The position numbers were made by a program, and so were the translations under genes. This document shows positions 15,226-43,596 of a DNA stretch of 43,596 nt, piece after piece (the first letter of the stretch is position 1; the number at the start of each line of letters is the position of its first letter). The notes below the pieces were generated by a model. That model made no database searches. It saw only the letters and a list, made by a program, of their open reading frames with translations, and had not been told where the DNA came from. Source of the stretch: Balneolaceae bacterium (GTDB taxonomy: Bacteria; Bacteroidota; Rhodothermia; Balneolales; Cyclonatronaceae); assembly GCA_007694035.1 (NCBI GenBank), contig RECM01000278.1:1-43596 (forward strand), read 5' to 3'.

Positions 15226-15313
15226 CTAAATTTAAATGTTTTGTATTGTATTTATGGCCGGTTGCTCTGGAAGGGCTTTTCGGTCTAATGTGTACATCAA
15301 AATCCAGCATGGC

Positions 15314-18300
15314 ATGAAAAATTATAAATCGCTACTACTACTGATCGCATTGTTTCTATTAGTTTCGGTTTCGGCCCAAAGTCAGGTCGTAAACGGAACT
15401 GTAGCCGACGCTCAAACCGGTGAACCCCTGATAGGCGTTAATATTATACTTCAGGGTACTACATCCGGCACGACCACCGATGTCGACGGCCGGTACTCCA
15501 TCACGTTACCAAATCTCGATGGAAGGCTTGTCTTTAGTTATGTGGGTTATGTTTCCAGAATTGTTGAAGTCGCCGGACGAAGTGAAATCAACCTGAATAT
15601 GGAGCCCGACATATTGATGGGCGAAGAATTTGTGGTTGTGGGCTACGGCCTGCAGCAGAAAAGCCTCGTAACAGGTTCCATTTCACGAATCGGAGCCGCT
15701 CAAATTGAACAATCGGCCTCCCTTCGCGTTGAGCAGGCCCTGCAGGGAAGAACAGCCGGTGTTATGGTTATGCAGAATTCCGGGCAGCCAGGTTCCGGAG
15801 CTACAGTAAGGATTCGCGGTATCGGTACCACCGGTAACGCCGATCCGCTCTATATTGTAGACGGGATGCCGGTTGGAGGTATAGATTACCTCAGCCCGAG
15901 TGATATTGCCTCAATAGAGGTACTTAAAGATGCCTCAGCAACCGCTATTTACGGGGCACGGGGTGCCAACGGGGTGGTCATGATCACCACAGCCCAGGGC
16001 CGGCCCGGCCCCATCCAGGTTTCCTACCACGGCTATCTGGGTGTTCAGAGCCCATGGAAAAAAACGGACCTGCTTGATGCGCCGAACTACATGAGGATAA
16101 TGAACGAAAGCTATGCCAACGATAACCGCCCCATACCGTTTCCCGACATTGATGCAAGAATTGCTCAAATCGGAAAAGGCACCGACTGGCAGGATGAGGT
16201 ATTCTTCTACAATGCACCGGTCGCCGATCACAGCCTGAGACTATCCGGCGGCTCGGAAACGTCAACATACATGCTCTCCATGTCGTACCGGCAGCAGGAT
16301 GGTATCGTGGCGGAAGGCAAGTCGAATTACGAGCGATTAACTGTACGTATGAATTCCGATCACAACCGCGGAAGGCTCACCTATGGCAGCCGTTTCAATT
16401 ACACCAACAAAACCACAAGGGGCATTAATCCGAATGAGGAATTTGGTGGTATTATGGCCCGTGTATCCAATATCGACCCGGTTACGCCGGTCAGGGATGC
16501 TGATGGCAACTTCGCTCAATCGCCCTATGCATCGCAGGAGGTGGTAAACCCGGTAGCCGCTATCGACATCATCAACGCCGAATGGAATGAAGATAAATTT
16601 GTGGGGGGTGTTTACGGCAATTTCAACATTCTCGACAATCTGAGCATCCGTTCAACACTTGACCTTGAACTTACGTACGGCAATAACCGCTCGTTTAACC
16701 CCAGGTACGACCTTGGAGGTAATGTTACAAATTCAACCACATCCGCCTTCCAGCAACAAAACAAATGGGTAACCTGGCAGACCAGCCATGTGCTCAGGTA
16801 TCAGCAGGCGTATCAGAACCACAATTTCACTGTTCTGGGTGGATTTGAACTGCTCTCACACAGACATGAATTTCTTGGTGGTACAGCGTTCAACCTGAGT
16901 ATGGAATCGTTTGATAACGCCTGGTTGTCGGTGGGTACGGACGAAGTAAACCAGACCAACTTTGGTGGGCTCGGGCTCGAGTCGATCGCATCGTTCTTTT
17001 CCCGTGTTAACTACGATTATAACAACAGGTACATGCTGGAAGGCGTGCTGCGGTATGACGGATCGTCCAAATTCGGCCCCGACAATCGCTGGGGTATTTT
17101 CCCCGCGTTTTCAGTTGGGTGGATTATTTCTGATGAAGAATTCATGAGTGATCAAAACGTGTTCAGTTTCCTCAAATTGAGGGGCGGCTGGGGCCAGAAC
17201 GGAAGTGACAATATCGGACAGTTCAGCTTTACACCGCTCATAACGACCCATGCCGGTTATGGGTTCGGAATGACACCTGTAGTTGTTACAGGCGCATACC
17301 CCGGGCAGATTGCCAACCCGGGCCTGAAATGGGAAACATCAGAACAGTTCAGTGTGGGCCTTGAGACCGCCTACAGGAATGACCAGATTTATCTGAACCT
17401 CGATTATTACATTAAAGATACCCAGGGCCTGCTGTTGGCAGCACCGATCCCGGCTTTCATCGGTAATGCACCACCGGTAATTAATGGCGGGAATGTCAGG
17501 AATACAGGTGTGGAAATTGAATCCGGTTTCCGTCATGTAACCGGCGACTGGCAGATGAATTTCAGCCTTACAGGTACCTACAACAAAAATGAGATGACGG
17601 CCATCAATAATGAAGAAGGACGTCTGTTCGGTGCAGGTGTATCTACATCGATGAACAATGTAGGTATGGCCATGGTCGGGCATCCTATCGCGTTCTTCTG
17701 GGGATACAGAACTGCCGGCATCTTTCAGAATACAGAGCAGGTTCAGAACCACAGATCATCCGATGGCACAGTGATTCAACCCAATGCCAGACCTGGCGAT
17801 ATGATTTTTGTGGATGTGAATGACGATGGTCAGATCACCGCCGAAGACCGTGTACAGATCGGTAATCCATATCCCGATTTCACCGCCGGTTTCAATATGG
17901 ACCTCAACTGGAGAAACTGGGATTTAAACATGTTCTGGTACGGTTCGTTCGGAAACGACATTTTCACAGGCGGCACGCGTCGCCACGATCTGAACATGCC
18001 GAACTGGAAAGCAGATGTTCTGAACCGCTGGACAGAAGACAATCCTTCTACCACGCACCCACGGGTTACCATCAATGATCCCAATGGTAACTTCACCCGT
18101 CCATCAGATTTCTTTGTGGAAGACGGGTCGTATGTAAGGCTGCGCAACATCAGCCTGGGCTACACCCTGCCAACGCGGATCGTACAGCGGGCGGGAGCAG
18201 CCAGAATGCGTATCTATGGCAGTGCCCAGAACCTGTTTACGTTTACCGGTTATTCCGGCCACGATCCGGAAATCGGATCGGGTTGGGCGCTTGATGTTGG

Positions 18301-18364
18301 CATCGACCGTAACATCTACCCACAGGCACGCACATTCACGATGGGTATCAACCTCGACTTTTAA
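15314..18364 (+). CDS. SusC/RagA family TonB-linked outer membrane protein
   Basis: MKNYKSLLLLIALFLLVSVSAQSQVVNGTVADAQTGEPLIGVNI; plug GRTAGVMVMQNSGQPGSGATVRIRG; DPLYIVDGMPVGGIDYLSPSDIASIEVLKDASATAIYGARGANGVVMITT. Start chosen at the internal Met followed by a signal peptide. Confidence 0.97.
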   Translation: MKNYKSLLLLIALFLLVSVSAQSQVVNGTVADAQTGEPLIGVNIILQGTTSGTTTDVDGRYSITLPNLDGRLVFSYVGYVSRIVEVAGRSEINLNMEPDILMGEEFVVVGYGLQQKSLVTGSISRIGAAQIEQSASLRVEQALQGRTAGVMVMQNSGQPGSGATVRIRGIGTTGNADPLYIVDGMPVGGIDYLSPSDIASIEVLKDASATAIYGARGANGVVMITTAQGRPGPIQVSYHGYLGVQSPWKKTDLLDAPNYMRIMNESYANDNRPIPFPDIDARIAQIGKGTDWQDEVFFYNAPVADHSLRLSGGSETSTYMLSMSYRQQDGIVAEGKSNYERLTVRMNSDHNRGRLTYGSRFNYTNKTTRGINPNEEFGGIMARVSNIDPVTPVRDADGNFAQSPYASQEVVNPVAAIDIINAEWNEDKFVGGVYGNFNILDNLSIRSTLDLELTYGNNRSFNPRYDLGGNVTNSTTSAFQQQNKWVTWQTSHVLRYQQAYQNHNFTVLGGFELLSHRHEFLGGTAFNLSMESFDNAWLSVGTDEVNQTNFGGLGLESIASFFSRVNYDYNNRYMLEGVLRYDGSSKFGPDNRWGIFPAFSVGWIISDEEFMSDQNVFSFLKLRGGWGQNGSDNIGQFSFTPLITTHAGYGFGMTPVVVTGAYPGQIANPGLKWETSEQFSVGLETAYRNDQIYLNLDYYIKDTQGLLLAAPIPAFIGNAPPVINGGNVRNTGVEIESGFRHVTGDWQMNFSLTGTYNKNEMTAINNEEGRLFGAGVSTSMNNVGMAMVGHPIAFFWGYRTAGIFQNTEQVQNHRSSDGTVIQPNARPGDMIFVDVNDDGQITAEDRVQIGNPYPDFTAGFNMDLNWRNWDLNMFWYGSFGNDIFTGGTRRHDLNMPNWKADVLNRWTEDNPSTTHPRVTINDPNGNFTRPSDFFVEDGSYVRLRNISLGYTLPTRIVQRAGAARMRIYGSAQNLFTFTGYSGHDPEIGSGWALDVGIDRNIYPQARTFTMGINLDF

Positions 18365-18382
18365 CATTAACACAATACCACA

Positions 18383-19927
18383 ATGAAGAAGCTATCAATT
18401 TTTCTAACTCTTACCGTCCTGTTGTTTCTGGGTGGTTGCGTTGATGATTTTTTAAGTCACAAGCCCCCCGTTCAACGAACCCAGGATAATTTTTTCCAGT
18501 CACAGCAGGATGCCGAACAGGCACTGTATGCCATCTATGAGGTGACCACGTTCTCTCATGGCCGCGGCAATTTCGGTTTCCATCCGTTTGACTTGATCTC
18601 CAACATCCTGTCAGACGATGCCTATGCCGGTGGTTCCGGCCCGGGTGACCAGCCGGAGCTTGTTGACTTCAATGCCCATAATATTTCCGTGACCAACGGT
18701 AAAGCGCTTGGGTTATGGTCAGACCGGTATACCGGTATCTACCGTGCCAATCTCCTGCTTAAGTACATCGATGAGATTGATTTCGTGAATGAAACAACAA
18801 GGGCCAATTTTGCTGCAGAAGCCCGTTTTCTTCGTGCGATGTTCTACTTCGACCTTGTGCGGTTTTACGGGTATATACCTCAGTTCACGCGCCCGCTTGT
18901 TGCCGCTGATATCGAAGTGCCGCAGAAAAGCCCCGAAGAGGTGTACAATTTCATAGCACAGGAGCTTGTTGAGATCATACCCAACATGCGTACCAGCGTT
19001 CCTGCCGCACAAGCCGGCCGGGCATCGGCCTGGGCAGCGAAATCTTTGCTGGGTCGGGTTTACCTGTACCATCAGGATTATGCCAAACCCGTTTTCGGTA
19101 TCGGCGATCTGCCGGTTACCCGGCAGGTAGTACTCGGGCATCTTGAGGATGTGATCCAGAACAGCGGACATGCCCTGCTGCCGAACTTTGCCAATCTGTG
19201 GGGACGTGCGGCCAATAATAACAACGAGGCCATTTTCTCGGTGCAGCACATTACCACATCCTTCGGCGACTGGGGCTTTTTGAACGGCTCTATCGGCAAC
19301 TGGACCGCAACCATGTCTGGTCTGCGCGGAGTTGGCTTTAACGTAAATTATGCCGGCGGATGGTCCTTCCAGCCGGTTACGCCCGATCTGGTTGCCGCAT
19401 TCGACCCTGCTACCGATTCGAGGTATCTTGCCACTATTCTTGATCCGGTGGCCGAAAACGTGCGGCACAATGCCGGTGAGATGTATCAGTGGCAGGGGTA
19501 CGCCTTTAAAAAGTTCTACCCGCGCCGGGGCGACACACCCGCTGTGAACGTAGAGTTCAACTGGCCGTACAACAGGCCCGTGGTCAGATTTGCCGATGTT
19601 CTGCTCATGGCAGCCGAACTGGGATCTCCCAATGCACAGACCTATTTCGATCAGGTACGTCAGCGGGCCTACGGTGCCAATTTTGTACAGATACCGGCCA
19701 CCCGGGAGAATATCATGAATGAACGCCGGCTCGAATTTGCCGGAGAAGGCATGCGCTACTGGGACCTGCTCAGAATGGGGCTCAATACGGCTGCCGAAAA
19801 GATCAACGCCCGGGCCAATCCGAATATTCCGATCAATTTCCGTACCGACCGGTTGGGCCTGTTGCCGATTCCCGAATCCGAGATCAGCCTGTCAAATCAG
19901 ACACTGGTGCAAAATCCCGGATATTAG
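18383..19927 (+). CDS. SusD/RagB family nutrient-binding outer membrane lipoprotein
   Basis: Lipobox LFLGGCVDDFL; RERR-like NERRLEFAGEGMRYWDLLRMG; directly downstream of susC. Confidence 0.96.
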   Translation: MKKLSIFLTLTVLLFLGGCVDDFLSHKPPVQRTQDNFFQSQQDAEQALYAIYEVTTFSHGRGNFGFHPFDLISNILSDDAYAGGSGPGDQPELVDFNAHNISVTNGKALGLWSDRYTGIYRANLLLKYIDEIDFVNETTRANFAAEARFLRAMFYFDLVRFYGYIPQFTRPLVAADIEVPQKSPEEVYNFIAQELVEIIPNMRTSVPAAQAGRASAWAAKSLLGRVYLYHQDYAKPVFGIGDLPVTRQVVLGHLEDVIQNSGHALLPNFANLWGRAANNNNEAIFSVQHITTSFGDWGFLNGSIGNWTATMSGLRGVGFNVNYAGGWSFQPVTPDLVAAFDPATDSRYLATILDPVAENVRHNAGEMYQWQGYAFKKFYPRRGDTPAVNVEFNWPYNRPVVRFADVLLMAAELGSPNAQTYFDQVRQRAYGANFVQIPATRENIMNERRLEFAGEGMRYWDLLRMGLNTAAEKINARANPNIPINFRTDRLGLLPIPESEISLSNQTLVQNPGY

Positions 19928-19958
19928 TTAGAATGATTAATCTGTGATTTTTTTAAAT

Positions 19959-19995
19959 CCACCGGTTGGTGTTCGTTCACCGGCCGGTGGTTTTT
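19959..19995 (+). terminator. intrinsic terminator after susD
   Basis: CCACCGG...CCGGTGG followed by TTTTT. Confidence 0.75.
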
Positions 19996-20228
19996 CTGTT
20001 CAGGTACCCGCTAACACTTGGCGGGCATATTTAGCCGGGTCAGGTTAAACCGGATAATGTTCAGCCAGAACAGGTTAAACCGGATCAGGTTAAGGCTTCC
20101 AACCGGAATTGACCTTGGCACGTTACGCAATAAGCAAATTTAATCGCGAAACAAAAAAGTGCAAACCGATTGTTCAGAGGCCGTTTAATACATCCCGGAA
20201 CACACCCTGAATCAGTTTAAACATCAAA

Positions 20229-22376
20229 ATGAATGGAGTTAATATGAAACTATATTATACCGGGGTTCTGATTGCACTGCTTGGCTTTATTACCTTTGTG
20301 CCCGTCACTATTCAGGCCCAGAACTGGGAGCTGATCTGGTCGGACGAATTCGATGGAAATGAACTTGATGGGTCGAAATGGTCGTTTCAGTACGGAACAG
20401 GTGCCGAAGAGGGACTGAGCGGCTGGGGAAACAGTGAATTGCAGTACTACACCGACCGGGCCGATAACATTTTCGTTCAGGATGGCAGGCTCCATATTGT
20501 AGCGCAACAGGAGACCTACCAGGGCATGGACTATACATCTGCCCGCATCCGCAGCATTCACCAGGGCGACTGGCGGTATGGCCGGTTTGAGATCAGGGCG
20601 AAGCTGCCGACAGGGCAGGGGCTCTGGCCTGCCATCTGGATGATGCCCACAGATGACGTTTACGGCCGCTGGCCCGCCAGCGGGGAAATCGACATCATGG
20701 AACTGGTTGGCCATGAACCCGATGTGATTCACGGTACCTTGCATTACGGGCCGCCGCACACCTACACTGGCGGATCGTACACGCTTGAAAATGGCACCTT
20801 TAACGACGATTTCCATACGTTCGCACTCGAATGGGAGCGTGGTGAAATGCGGTGGTATGTAGATGATGTACTGTATCTCACACAAACAGACTGGTTCAGC
20901 CAGGGGCAGGGATTCCCGGCCCCGTTCGAGCAGCGTTTCCACATGATTCTCAATGTGGCTGTTGGCGGAAACTGGCCCGGTAGCCCCGACAACACTACCG
21001 TTTTTCCACAACAGATGGAAATTGACTTTGTACGTGTATACCGGGATGCAGATGCCACATTCGATGTTTCCCTCCCGCTCACGTTCGAAGATCTCTACTC
21101 CAACTGGGCTGACGCGTTCACAGGATTTGAAGGAGGCACCGTTACGCCGGCCGATAATCCCGCACCGGATTTTATCAACAACAGCGACCGGGTCGGAATG
21201 ATGGTGAAAGACGGTGGCGCTTACTGGGGTGGAGCATATTTCAGGACCGAACGCCCCTTCTCTTTCAATGCGGACGTGAATACGATTACCATGAAGGTCT
21301 GGTCGCCGCGCAGCGGCGTTCCAATACTAATCAAAGCGGAACAACAAAATAGTGACCTGGAATTTGAAACCGTGCAGACCACTACCGCCAGCGGTGAGTG
21401 GGAGGTAATTACCTGGAGTGTGGACCCGGAAGCTTACAATATTGACTGGGATATAATTACGCTCATTTTTGATTTTGAAGAGGGCCAGTCGGGCGATGGA
21501 AGTGAGGATTTCATCTGGTATTTCGACGATCTCGACGTTTATGCTGCCATAACGGAAGACCCGGTTACCCCTGCAAACCAGGTCCCCGTTACGCTTCCGC
21601 TCACCTTTGAAAACACGCAATTCCCCTGGAACCGGGCATTTCTTGGATTCAGCGGTGGCGAGATAACAACCGTAAGAAACCCGCATCCCGATGTTCTGAA
21701 TAACTCTGCCCGGGTCGGAAAAATGGTTAAAAATGGCGGAGCTTTCTGGGGCGGGGCGTACATGATTCTGGATGACGCGTTTGTTTTCAGTGAAGACAAA
21801 CACACCATAACCATGAAGGTCTGGTCGCCGCGCCCCGAAGTACCGGTTCTGATGAAAATGGAACAGCGTTTCGGCGTCCAGTTCTACGAAATTGCCGAGC
21901 CCACCGCTACCAGCCAGCAATGGGAAGAGATGACCTGGAACATGAGCGGGGCCGGGTTTGTAAGGGAATGGGACCTTATTACACTGATATTTGATTTCCG
22001 GGCCGGGCAGGTCGGTGATGGCAGCGACAATTTCACCTGGTATTTCGATGATCTGGTTGTGGATGCGGAAAGGGTTGGGACCTCGGTGCCCGGCCACGGA
22101 TCAGATTTGCCGGTGACCTATGAACTCAGGCAAAATTATCCCAATCCATTCAACCCGACAACACAAATTCAATTCAACCTGCCCGAGCAGGCCCATGTTA
22201 TGCTCGAGGTCTACAATATTATGGGCCAGCGGGTGGCCACGCTCGCCAACGGCGCATTCCGGGCAGGCAGGCATGATGTGGTTTTTGACGCAACCGGTCT
22301 GGCTAGCGGCGTTTATCTGTACCATCTGCGTACCCCTTCGTTCAGTCAAACACAGAAAATGCTGCTGGCAAAATAA
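20229..22376 (+). CDS. GH16 endo-beta-glucanase/laminarinase with two C-terminal glycan-binding-like modules and T9SS tail
   Basis: WPASGEIDIMELVGHEPDVIHGTLHYG catalytic motif; duplicated ~165 aa module (LPLTFEDLYSNW..., LPLTFENTQFPW...); tail QNYPNPFNPTTQIQF. The Met at 20244 is an alternative start. Confidence 0.93.
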   Translation: MNGVNMKLYYTGVLIALLGFITFVPVTIQAQNWELIWSDEFDGNELDGSKWSFQYGTGAEEGLSGWGNSELQYYTDRADNIFVQDGRLHIVAQQETYQGMDYTSARIRSIHQGDWRYGRFEIRAKLPTGQGLWPAIWMMPTDDVYGRWPASGEIDIMELVGHEPDVIHGTLHYGPPHTYTGGSYTLENGTFNDDFHTFALEWERGEMRWYVDDVLYLTQTDWFSQGQGFPAPFEQRFHMILNVAVGGNWPGSPDNTTVFPQQMEIDFVRVYRDADATFDVSLPLTFEDLYSNWADAFTGFEGGTVTPADNPAPDFINNSDRVGMMVKDGGAYWGGAYFRTERPFSFNADVNTITMKVWSPRSGVPILIKAEQQNSDLEFETVQTTTASGEWEVITWSVDPEAYNIDWDIITLIFDFEEGQSGDGSEDFIWYFDDLDVYAAITEDPVTPANQVPVTLPLTFENTQFPWNRAFLGFSGGEITTVRNPHPDVLNNSARVGKMVKNGGAFWGGAYMILDDAFVFSEDKHTITMKVWSPRPEVPVLMKMEQRFGVQFYEIAEPTATSQQWEEMTWNMSGAGFVREWDLITLIFDFRAGQVGDGSDNFTWYFDDLVVDAERVGTSVPGHGSDLPVTYELRQNYPNPFNPTTQIQFNLPEQAHVMLEVYNIMGQRVATLANGAFRAGRHDVVFDATGLASGVYLYHLRTPSFSQTQKMLLAK

Positions 22377-22564: not shown

Positions 22565-25090
22565 TCATTTGATGATCGTAAACTTGCGCGATTGTACGTT
22601 ATCGCGGGTGATTAACCGGTAGATGTATACCCCGCTCGCCAGCCCGGTTGCATCAAACGGTACCTCGTACCGCCCCGATACCCTGAAGTCGTCGACCAGG
22701 GTTGCTACTTTCCGTCCGAGCATGTCGTATACCTCGAGTTTTATGTTGCCGGCCAATGGTATTTCAAACGGAATGATCGTACCGGGGTTAAAAGGGTTCG
22801 GGTAGTTCTGGTCGAGCCGGAAAGTAACAGGCCGCCGGGGTTCCTCATCTGTTTTCGTGGTTGTATCGGGTACAATTTCCAGGCTGATATTATTGAATGT
22901 GACCCGGTTGCCGTTATCGGCCGACATATTATCGCCGTCAAAACGGATCCTGACCCTGAAATCGGGATTGTCCATTACATCATCAATACCGCTGAAATCA
23001 ATGCTGTAACGCTGAAACTCGGTGTCGAGGGGGTACCGGTCATTCGCCAGGCCATCGTCTGTCCATACCGGCCCGCCTGTTTCCGTAGAGTAGTCGATCA
23101 ACAATGCCGTGGCTGCTCCCTCATCCATCGCGGCAAAACTGAAAATCACGCCTTCAAGGCCTGATGTCGGCATTTCAAAAATCAGGGTGTTTTCGCCGCC
23201 ATTGCCGGTAAACGGCTGCTTTACCTGTAATGCACGCATGGTGTTCTGGTCGTAGGGCCGGCCCTGGTTGCCTTCGGGGTGGTAGTTGATTTCGGTCGGA
23301 CGGTTGCGGCGCTCCATCGATGCTTTCCTCCACAGGGGGTGGGTATCGGTAAACGGATAGCCATCAAGGGCCGACTCAAACCGGATGGTGGCCTGCTCTA
23401 CCAGGGAGTAGGTGGCTTCCACAGATTCAAGCGGGGTGTTATTGATGAGATCGCTGCCAAAAAACCAGAAGTACCGAAGGCGGGATTCTGGCTCTTCAGA
23501 GGGCTCGGGCATTTGAGAGTCGATCCAGTCCATCCGCTTCTCCACCCAGTCGATCAGCCATTCAATCTCTTCTTCCCAGGTGTCGTATCCGTCGCGGCTG
23601 TACTCCCATACCCACTCACCAAGTATGGGCCATCGTATAAAATTCCGTTCCTGGGCTTCTTCCAGCAGTTCGGCATACCCGCGGATCATGTTTACTATGT
23701 GTTCTGTGGCATAGGGTCCCTGGCGCAGCTGCCACCAGCGGTCGCTGTATTTGCGGCTGAATGCCTCATCCTGGAACAGGCGTGTGTACCAGCCGTTCAG
23801 GTACTGAGTGGGGTTCAGATGGGTGTGGTACCAACCCGTTGGCGCTCCGCTCCATGGCCCCTTATAGTTGCCGGTGCTCAGGTTATAATCCCATATCGGG
23901 CCCATCACCATTTTGCCGCCACGGTCTTTATGCATGATCGTGCTGAGGCGGAAACCGTCCATCTCCTTTAAAGCCTCGATCATCAGGTGATAGTCGACGA
24001 ACGAGTCTGTGTCAAGCCACGCGGCGTACCCTGCATCAGGATCCCGGAAATTTGAACCGAACAGCGCGGCCTCCAGGCCACCGGTGTAGCCCGATATCCA
24101 GTTGCGCTGCTGGGGAGTTATATCTTCGACAGAGGGCCGGATAAGGGAAAACCTGGTGTTGAAAAAGGAACTTCTGAAATGATCATCCCGGTCGTAGTTG
24201 ATTATATACCCGCCGGTGATCTCCGGTTCGGCATTGTCTTCTGGTGTTAATTTGGTGATGTTAACGCGGTTATTGTCCCACTTTACCCGCTCAACCAGCA
24301 TATACACACCGTGGTAATGGCTTGCGGTTACCGGGCCGTTGCCATCGTGCAGAAAAAGCTCCACAAACCGGAGCCGGGGCGCGTATCGGCCCATATCGCG
24401 CCCAAGATCATAGGCGATGGCGTTGCGGATCAGTGTTTTGTCATCATAGGGCGCACTCATAATCCAGTTGTTTTCGGAGGGCATCCCCAGCACTGACTCG
24501 TTCCGGTTTTCGCCGGAATCGTCAATCAGGCGCACTCCAAACTGTTTTTTGGGAAACCCAAGAGAACTGGACCCGCGGTAGTTTGATTCGCTCAGGCTCT
24601 GCAGGTGCAGCTTGTCTGACAGCAGCCGTGCCCGGCCATCCTGCCCGATATCAATAACGGAAAACCCGACCGTTGACCGGTATGCACCCCAACGCTCCAT
24701 CACATCATCGAACTGGTGAACGATAACAAGGGGAAGGTTCGAGTCGAAATCCGCCACATTCGGATGAAGCTGGCTGTAGATTTTTGTGACTGCCGGACCG
24801 GGCTCAAAACCGTCGCGAAATGCGCGGGCACGAATCATCACCGATCCCGATACGGGCACCGGTTGCCCGGTTTGATACTGCTGATCCGATAATCCGGGCA
24901 GGTTACCGTTAGTGGTAAAGTATATCACGGTATTTTCTTCAGCCTCCATCTCAAGATCGAAAGGCTGGGTAAAGGTGCCGGCACTGTGTGAGAAAACAGG
25001 TGGCTGTAGGGTCTGAGCAGTTACTGATGTACTGGCGAGCATCAGCACCAGTATGCTGATGGCTAAGATGTAGCGCTTGAATATATACAT
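22565..25090 (-). CDS. secreted CotH kinase-like protein with T9SS tail
   Basis: GSSSLGFPKKQFGVRLIDDSGENRNESVLGMPSENNWIMSAPYDDKTLIRNAIAYDLG, YHGVYMLVERVKWD and MGPIWDYNLSTGN are CotH-type motifs; N-terminal chitobiase-C-like segment; QNYPNPFNPGTIIPF tail. Confidence 0.85.
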   Translation of the reverse strand: MYIFKRYILAISILVLMLASTSVTAQTLQPPVFSHSAGTFTQPFDLEMEAEENTVIYFTTNGNLPGLSDQQYQTGQPVPVSGSVMIRARAFRDGFEPGPAVTKIYSQLHPNVADFDSNLPLVIVHQFDDVMERWGAYRSTVGFSVIDIGQDGRARLLSDKLHLQSLSESNYRGSSSLGFPKKQFGVRLIDDSGENRNESVLGMPSENNWIMSAPYDDKTLIRNAIAYDLGRDMGRYAPRLRFVELFLHDGNGPVTASHYHGVYMLVERVKWDNNRVNITKLTPEDNAEPEITGGYIINYDRDDHFRSSFFNTRFSLIRPSVEDITPQQRNWISGYTGGLEAALFGSNFRDPDAGYAAWLDTDSFVDYHLMIEALKEMDGFRLSTIMHKDRGGKMVMGPIWDYNLSTGNYKGPWSGAPTGWYHTHLNPTQYLNGWYTRLFQDEAFSRKYSDRWWQLRQGPYATEHIVNMIRGYAELLEEAQERNFIRWPILGEWVWEYSRDGYDTWEEEIEWLIDWVEKRMDWIDSQMPEPSEEPESRLRYFWFFGSDLINNTPLESVEATYSLVEQATIRFESALDGYPFTDTHPLWRKASMERRNRPTEINYHPEGNQGRPYDQNTMRALQVKQPFTGNGGENTLIFEMPTSGLEGVIFSFAAMDEGAATALLIDYSTETGGPVWTDDGLANDRYPLDTEFQRYSIDFSGIDDVMDNPDFRVRIRFDGDNMSADNGNRVTFNNISLEIVPDTTTKTDEEPRRPVTFRLDQNYPNPFNPGTIIPFEIPLAGNIKLEVYDMLGRKVATLVDDFRVSGRYEVPFDATGLASGVYIYRLITRDNVQSRKFTIIK

Positions 25091-41263: not shown

Positions 41264-42283
41264 ATGGCTGAAATTTTTGAAAATGTTTCCCTGCGCAATC
41301 TTAACACTTTTGGCATAGAATCAAGGGCGCGCCGATTCACGCGTCCGAAAACGAAAGACGAGCTGATCGCAATGCTGCAGCAAAACCCGGCGGCCGGCCT
41401 GGAAAAACGGGTGCTGGGTGGAGGAAGCAATATTCTGATAACCGGCGATGTGGATGCCCTGGTTATCCGGTACGATGATGTAAGTATGGATGTGGTACGG
41501 GAAACGGATGAGCATGTGTGGCTCAGGGTTGGAGGCGGACATAACTGGCACGATCTGGTGGTGAGGTGCATCGAAACCGGTCTGGCCGGAATCGAAAACC
41601 TCTCACTCATACCCGGTAATGTGGGGGCCGCCCCGATCCAGAATATCGGGGCATATGGCGTTGAACTGGCCGAGGTGTTCGATTCGCTTGAAGCTGTGGA
41701 ACTGTCGGGCGGCGAAGTGCACGCCTTCAGCAGCGAGGAATGCGGTTTCGGATACCGCGACAGTATTTTCAAAAACCGGGAGAAAGGGCGTTACCTGATC
41801 ACCGATGTTGTGTTGCGGCTGAACCGCAAGCCGGATTTCCGACTCGATTACGGCGATATACGCAGTACGCTCGATGCCATGGGCGTTGAAAAGCTCACAA
41901 TCGGGGCGGTCAGCGAGGCGGTGTGCCGAATCAGGCGCAGCAAACTTCCCGATCCGGCCAGACTGGGCAATGCCGGCAGCTATTTTAAAAACCCTGTTAT
42001 CACGGAAAAAGAATTTGAAAAACTTCGGGGAAAATACCCTGTAATGCCCGGTTATCCGTCAGGAGCCGGCAAGGTCAAAATACCTGCGGGGTGGCTCATC
42101 GAAAAAGCGGGCTGGAAAGGCCGCCGGATCGGAGAAACGGGAACCCACGAAAAACAGGCGCTGGTTATCGTGAATTATGGCATGGCGACCGGACAGGAGA
42201 TTCTTGACTATTCGGCCGGCATTGCCGCGGAGGTAGAATCCAAATTTGGCATCACGCTCACACCGGAAGTAAATATCTGGTAG
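41264..42283 (+). CDS. murB: UDP-N-acetylmuramate dehydrogenase
   Basis: NTFGIESRARRF...VLGGGSNILITGD...GLAGIENLSLIPGNVGAAPIQNIGAYGVELAEVF...YRDSIFK...PAGWLIEKAGWKG. Confidence 0.97.
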   Translation: MAEIFENVSLRNLNTFGIESRARRFTRPKTKDELIAMLQQNPAAGLEKRVLGGGSNILITGDVDALVIRYDDVSMDVVRETDEHVWLRVGGGHNWHDLVVRCIETGLAGIENLSLIPGNVGAAPIQNIGAYGVELAEVFDSLEAVELSGGEVHAFSSEECGFGYRDSIFKNREKGRYLITDVVLRLNRKPDFRLDYGDIRSTLDAMGVEKLTIGAVSEAVCRIRRSKLPDPARLGNAGSYFKNPVITEKEFEKLRGKYPVMPGYPSGAGKVKIPAGWLIEKAGWKGRRIGETGTHEKQALVIVNYGMATGQEILDYSAGIAAEVESKFGITLTPEVNIW

Positions 42284-42504: not shown

Positions 42505-42825
42505 TTTGCACATATTGCGTTGCCGTTTTTTTCTGTTAAATTGCTACCAGAGTCAGACAGAAACATTAGAAACGAAGTTTGGCTTGAGGTTCGATACCGT
42601 CCGGTGTCGGGAGTCTGCGTTAACTCACAGGTTCCGGCGCAAGTCACTTCGGTAGGTGCCGGTTTAAAACGAATGTATCGAATAACAGCCTTTTCCGATT
42701 GGGAACAAGAGCTGCGGATCGGTCGCAAAATCTACGGATATTGTGGCTTATACGAGGAAATTGAGTTCGAATAGATCTTAAATCCTCTGCCGGAGACTCC
42801 CCACGGGAAAGGCTTTTTTTTTGCC
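42505..42825 (+). ncRNA. candidate structured ncRNA, copy 1 (promoter-like region to U-tract)
   Basis: Diverged copy at 43135-43450; hairpins CGATACC-GTCC-GGTGTCG and CCGGCGC...GTGCCGG; end pairing GAGTC/GACTC; TTTTTTTTT terminator tract. Confidence 0.45.
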
Positions 42826-43134
42826 TCTCTTCCCCTTCCGGTATACCCGGCTCTGAAAACAATCATTGTATTTCCCGGTGGATAAATCCCCGGCCGGAAC
42901 ATCGGGCTGTACACTGCCACGATTTGTCCGGCCCTGGTTTGCCCCGATGCAATCCTGTCAATAATGATCAAGTCGAACGCCGGCCGGATTTTTTTTCGAT
43001 TATTTATTTGACGCCTGTGCACCATATTCACCACCCTCATTTATTTGGAACTAATCTACATAAAAAGGTTACCTGTTGATGCACATGAAGCTAATGAAGA
43101 TGAGATAATAATGACCTTATAAATCTCATTTTTT

Positions 43135-43450
43135 ATACATATTGTGACCGGGTTTTTTTTCTTTAAATTACTTCCAGAGTCAGACAGAAACATTGGAAAC
43201 GAAGTTTGGCTTGAGGTTCAATACCGTCCGGTGTCGGGAGCCAAGGGTTAATTCTCAGGTTCCGGCGAAAGCCAACAAATACGACCCGGTTTAAAACGTA
43301 CGTATTGGATAACAGCCTTTTCCTGTGGGAACAAGAGCTGCGGATCGGCCGCAAAACCTACGGGTTTAGTAGGCCTATATGAAGCGATTGAGTTCGAATA
43401 GAATTTGATTCTTCTGCCGGAGACTCCCCGCGGAAAAGGCTTTTTTTATT
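43135..43450 (+). ncRNA. candidate structured ncRNA, copy 2
   Basis: Same order of conserved blocks as copy 1 with a compensatory pair change; ends CGGAAAAGGCTTTTTTT. Confidence 0.45.
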
Positions 43451-43596
43451 TATGCACTTCTCGTTCCTCCCGAACATCGCTAAATCGGAAATCGATACGT
43501 CTTATGAATCGTTCAATCAAATGGATTCGGATTTGGCCGGGATCGCGACTTTTTGATATCCGATTCATGAGACGTAGCGACCCGGCGATATTCGAT

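Follow-up and report, generated by a model that had tools for sequence, protein, structure and literature searches.

A probable paralogous gene pair for an undescribed family of free-standing structured non-coding RNA in a Balneolaceae bacterium

The last 1.1 kb of the DNA analysed here, a 43,596-nt stretch from a Balneolaceae bacterium (assembly GCA_007694035.1, contig RECM01000278.1; hereafter "the window"), contains two similar sequences downstream of murB, which raises the question of what they encode. A preliminary description, made from the sequence alone, took them to be two diverged copies, with a common block order, of a duplicated unit of ~310 bp, and read this unit as an undescribed family of structured non-coding RNA (ncRNA). 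The duplication itself is borne out, since the two copies are collinear, with 86% identity across 265 aligned positions, and the same pair is found in a second species. The unit is smaller than proposed, however; each copy is about 270 nt long, and the starts of the two are 627 nt apart. The sequence elements named in that description (CCAGAGTCAGACAGAAACATT, RATACC-GTCC-GGTGTCG, and the CTGCCGGAGACTCCCC...AAGGCTTTTTTT ends) are all present in both copies at the places given. The checks that it proposed also support its reading: covariance models match 18 genomes in addition to that of the second species, covariation is strong in all three domains of the RNA, no Rfam family matches the RNA, and there is neither protein-like conservation nor a conserved open reading frame (ORF). 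We therefore conclude, with a probability of roughly 0.8, that positions 42549-42822 and 43176-43447 are paralogous genes for a free-standing, highly structured ncRNA whose family has not been described before. The features of the locus are as follows:

41264..42283, + strand: murB, the upstream same-strand neighbour in both species of the genus, given as context and lying outside the RNA (Pfam MurB_C and FAD_binding_4; synteny in the second species, G001)
42509..42517, + strand: conserved upstream/-33 element of copy 1, CACATATTG (ACATRTTG in nearly all family copies; upstream alignment of 22 copies)
42536..42544, + strand: putative -7 element of copy 1, TTAAATTGC, resembling the Bacteroidota TAnnTTTG box with TTG-N19-TA spacing (sequence and upstream alignment)
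42549..42822, + strand: structured ncRNA, copy 1 with its U-tract (324.6 bits with covariance model R1, which was itself built from copy 1 among others; homologs; folding z = -3.9)
42550..42585, + strand: copy 1 domain I, a 5' hairpin in which 42550-42556 pairs with 42579-42585 (A-U to C-G change in copy a of G001; hairpin also in homologs)
42589..42683, + strand: copy 1 domain II, central, with a long closing stem and two hairpins at its tip (fold and pair comparison with homologs)
42687..42822, + strand: copy 1 domain III, 3', with a AGCCUUUUCC/GGGAAAGGCU closing stem followed by the U-tract, a predicted intrinsic terminator (two-sided changes in 29 of 42 pairs, 22 sequences)
43137..43144, + strand: conserved -33 element of copy 2, ACATATTG (sequence and upstream alignment)
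43163..43171, + strand: putative -7 element of copy 2, TTAAATTAC (sequence and upstream alignment)
43176..43447, + strand: structured ncRNA, copy 2 with its U-tract (313.8 bits with R1, likewise built from copy 2 among others; folding z = -4.7; 94% identity to the G001 ortholog)
43177..43213, + strand: copy 2 domain I, 5' hairpin (fold; in-genus pair comparison)
43216..43310, + strand: copy 2 domain II, central (fold; in-genus pair comparison)
43313..43447, + strand: copy 2 domain III with terminator (fold; 3'-domain covariation count)

Both copies are much more stable when folded than their dinucleotide-preserving shuffles (z = -3.86 for copy 1 and -4.68 for copy 2). The predicted layout comprises a 5' hairpin (domain I), a long central stem with two tip hairpins (domain II), and a 3' domain built around a three-way junction (domain III). 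The closing stem of domain III pairs AGCCUUUUCC with GGGAAAGGCU in copy 1 and, with the U residues that follow it, forms the terminator; the same domain includes a 5-nt A-rich AACAA bulge and a hairpin capped by C(UACG)G. Several pairings suggested in the preliminary description are replaced in this fold. The closure of the molecule by GAGTC and GACTC is not conserved: GAGTC (42550-42554) has a local partner at 42579-42585, and the GACTC proposed to meet it (42795-42799) pairs instead with GAGC at about 42709. A 7-bp CCGGCGC/GTGCCGG stem is present in copy 1, as described, but is not conserved, the corresponding sequences being CCGGCGA/GACCCGG in copy 2 and CCGGCGC/ACAACGG in copy a of G001. 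In place of the proposed TTCC/GGAA and TGCG/CGCA hairpins, the conserved fold has the closing stem of the 3' domain and its junction hairpins.

Comparison across homologs shows that this fold is maintained by compensatory changes in two bacterial families. Among 22 sequences of the 3' domain, 95.0% of cells are paired (79.7 ± 0.8 in shuffles), 29 of 42 pairs have two-sided changes (18.0 ± 2.0 in shuffles), and there are 145 double-change cells (42.2 ± 5.4 in shuffles); these counts are flattered by an alignment that was fitted to the model structure. When the partner column was slid by one to three positions as a control, pairing in the 3' domain fell to 40-60%. Alignments made from sequence only, and folds of single sequences, provide controls free of this bias. 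For domains I and II, a sequence-only MAFFT alignment read against the fold of one member gave 75.2% paired cells (65.0 ± 0.9 in shuffles) and two-sided changes in 36 of 50 pairs (21 ± 2.5 in shuffles). Unaided minimum-energy folding recovered the same three domains in most homologs, with the central domain deviating in three of them (L038, L039 and L042).

The only other genome of the genus that we found, G001 (JAIVHB010000148.1, titled as a Rhodothermaceae MAG), has the RNA pair beside murB in the same order and orientation as the window. We consider that neither the shared fold nor the pair is due to chance, given the folding z scores and this recurrence. Within the genus, each of the 79 consensus pairs is intact in all four copies, six of the pairs showing two-sided changes. 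Orthologs in the two genomes are 92.9% and 94.1% identical, as compared to 82-86% for paralogs, indicating that the duplication predates the divergence of these species. Across the alignment that spans murB, DNA identity between the window and G001 is 82%, so that the RNA, at 93-94%, is under stronger constraint than the adjacent gene; the spacer between the copies has 77% identity and 117 gap positions. Copy 2 is followed by a 132-bp element that has ~20-nt inverted repeats and looks like a MITE or a REP-type repeat, with a related sequence at the end of the window (43472-43596). G001 has two tandem copies of this element, 85% alike (L010:1212-1475).

Homologs outside the genus were reached with covariance models. 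R1, built from the four in-genus copies, gave full-length matches in two genomes of another family (f4) of the same order, G047 (52 bits) and G058 (31.6 bits). A second model, R2, to which the central and 3' regions of these two sequences were added, matched 18 f4 genomes of genera g25, g189 and g192 at 61-126 bits. A third, R3, consisting of the 3' domain alone, was run over 129 genomes of the order and recovered the same 18 together with both genomes of the window genus; over 396 genomes of the phylum its matches fell in genera g1 and g25 only. Blastn over the 396 phylum genomes gave no match outside the genome of origin, and phages, plasmids and viral contigs (IMG/VR) contained no match to the RNA. 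Short blastn matches of copy 1 among 60 relatives were set aside as terminators in G010, G021, G024 and G033, the last three adjoining SAM-riboswitch-like sequence, and a further one in G027 lies within an apparently coding stretch. Three covariance-model matches (L018-L020) were rejected as short or gapped chance alignments. A deeper R3 search of 16 chosen negative genomes returned terminator-sized matches of about 40-76 nt and no homologs. Thus the RNA has a narrow, patchy spread (some 20 of the 129 genomes from the order), and covariance-model search did not find it in well-assembled close relatives, absence calls that fall short of proof since the pre-filter scores part of each genome's candidates. 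The patchiness of the distribution argues for an accessory, perhaps condition-specific, role rather than a housekeeping one.

Each gene appears, from its sequence features, to have its own promoter of the TTG-N19-TA type and a built-in intrinsic terminator. The promoter-like segments noted earlier, TTGCGT-15-TTAAAT (42515-42541) and TTGTGA-15-TTAAAT (43142-43168), are both present. Indeed, the upstream region is among the best-conserved parts of the locus, with CACATATTG, a gap of ~18-20 nt, a TTAWATTRC-like box, and further conserved positions to about -100. The pattern CACATATTG-N18-22-TWWATT occurs once in the window's own genome and once in G001, in both cases at the RNA locus. The -7 box of Bacteroidota has the consensus TAnnTTTG (PMC9723704), and the upstream elements fit the promoter pattern of this phylum. 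From predicted start to terminator, at GGCTTTT, all 22 aligned sequences are 262-271 nt long, which we take as the probable length of the RNA. A discrete transcript of about 265-275 nt is predicted from the conservation of the promoter, the uniform length and the intrinsic terminator, and we infer that the RNA is transcribed as a discrete, stable species. The long conserved upstream region further suggests that transcription is regulated. Some 80 nt ahead of the predicted RNA start, homologs (e.g. L038, L039) have an ATTG-N5-CAAT palindrome of moderate conservation, perhaps a regulator site.

An obvious alternative is that the RNA is a diverged housekeeping RNA (6S, tmRNA, RNase P or SRP RNA) that Rfam models miss. 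Its size, autonomy, and own promoter and terminator would suit such an identity, and 6S RNA (RF00013), another autonomous structured RNA, is known as paralogous pairs in some bacteria. Nonetheless, as the preliminary description anticipated, none of these identities fits. Rfam 15 gave no match at the gathering score, either in the window or at the RNA of nine homologous loci, and at E <= 3 no model, those of RNase P and SRP included, had a match inside the RNA across the same set; at this relaxed threshold rli26 matched with 22 bits, in antisense to the promoter region. ARAGORN found no tmRNA in the window, and the tmRNA of this genome is on contig C257 (153.5 bits). 6S RNA is a rod with a central bubble, unlike the three-domain window RNA, and a separate 6S-like RNA with a rod-like fold (z = -4.8), a closing stem and a central bulge is encoded elsewhere in the genome (G000:C2:28204-28385; L012:1501-1682, - strand); its score of 30 bits against a cut-off of 46.4 suggests that the Rfam 6S model under-scores this lineage. 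Since the RNA is also not found in many relatives that must carry housekeeping RNAs, we regard this explanation as extremely improbable. We give as little credence to a cis-regulatory leader, in which a riboswitch or attenuator would control a downstream gene through its built-in terminator. In its favour, the fold includes the terminator, copy 1 is followed on its own strand by copy 2, and at three of the 18 f4 loci a same-strand ORF comes next. At the other 15, however, the downstream gene is convergent, as is the FKBP-like gene on the opposite strand in the window genus, and the downstream genes vary between lineages, with no constant neighbour; this predominance of a convergent, facing gene argues against a riboswitch. 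A small mRNA, or a dual-function RNA for a short peptide, is very unlikely. Its appeal is that, in several homologs, one frame of the central motif gives I-V-R-G-C-E-N-P-G-I, but starts and stops around this stretch are not conserved, two homologs lack any ORF of at least 15 aa, the stretch is absent from the window genus, and this sole constant stretch is accounted for by a conserved RNA motif.

Another possibility, unlikely but less easily dismissed, is that the RNA is part of a mobile or defence element, such as a retron-like msr-msd, a guide RNA or a non-autonomous transposon. The presence of the RNA is patchy, its chromosomal location within the order varies among at least five sites, relatives have RNA-less sites (it is absent there beside the methyltransferase gene of the f4 neighbourhood described below), the genes are tandemly duplicated, and the 132-bp inverted-repeat element lies just downstream in the window genus. 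These observations are also in keeping with vertical descent accompanied by loss and rearrangement, and 12 of the 18 f4 loci share one syntenic neighbourhood, with a short-chain dehydrogenase, GFO/IDH/MocA oxidoreductase or methyltransferase gene (e.g. L048:6340-7647, L062:5112-7100), the remaining f4 loci being elsewhere. Nine neighbours scanned in Pfam included no reverse transcriptase, nuclease or transposase, so that a retron or DRT ncRNA was rejected in view also of the lack of a constant neighbour, and the searches of phage, plasmid and viral contigs were negative. Farther from the RNA pair, the window has consecutive + strand genes for a TonB-dependent (SusC-like) receptor, SusD and a protein with a GH16 domain (15236-22376), likely a polysaccharide-utilisation locus, and an 841-aa CotH kinase-domain protein (22565-25090, - strand).

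A paralogous pair of free-standing structured ncRNA genes accounts for the locus more readily, in that conserved, covarying structure is combined with what look, as sequence features, like a promoter and a terminator of its own. The RNA is most likely a trans-acting regulatory RNA or the RNA component of an RNP, where we infer action in trans solely from the autonomy of the gene. We propose that the RNA would act in trans as a regulator or RNP component, that conserved unpaired parts of it, namely the AACAA bulge, the three-way junction and the GUGUGAAAA loop of family f4, may be presented to a protein or RNA partner, and that its transcription may be regulated through the long conserved upstream region. 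Duplication of the gene in the window genus may have served dosage or specialisation. A bolder version, which we consider rather unlikely, is that this is a new class of ornate RNA that moves between chromosomal sites as an RNA-only gene and whose role is that of an RNP scaffold, an oligomer or a regulator of undescribed mechanism.

The nearest analogue by size and organisation is the raiA motif RNA, or ModT, of Bacillota and Actinomycetota, which is transcribed from a single sigma-A-type promoter, is 215-260 nt long in C. difficile, and acts in trans (PMC11706538). It resembles the window RNA in size and organisation only, being free-standing, with an elaborate conserved fold and its own terminator. 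The window and the nine homolog loci gave no match to its Rfam model; moreover, the ModT model has two pseudoknots, whereas the fold proposed here consists of nested pairs only, and raiA occurs in over 2,500 species, as compared to about 20 genomes for the window RNA. OLE, GOLLD and ROOL are larger RNAs that form homo-oligomers by cryo-EM. They share with the window RNA an elaborate conserved fold, a non-coding nature and a function that was long obscure (PMC12286853), but they have no covariance match to it. Among Bacteroidota sRNAs, Rfp18 of Flavobacterium psychrophilum, for which mRNA targets have been predicted, is by description similar in being a newly described, structured, independent transcription unit of the -33/-7 promoter group (PMC9723704).

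Titles and abstracts of the literature on small and structured RNAs of this bacterial branch yielded no report of the family. The family is new and absent from Rfam 15, its general kind, the free-standing structured ncRNA, being known already; all members to date come from one order of environmental bacteria. By analogy with raiA/ModT, a specific cellular job would be expected for a structured RNA of such size and covariation. With an alignment of 22 members, a secondary structure that has been tested, defined gene ends, a promoter signature and relatives that have or lack the gene, the function can be addressed directly in a cultivated member, if there is one.
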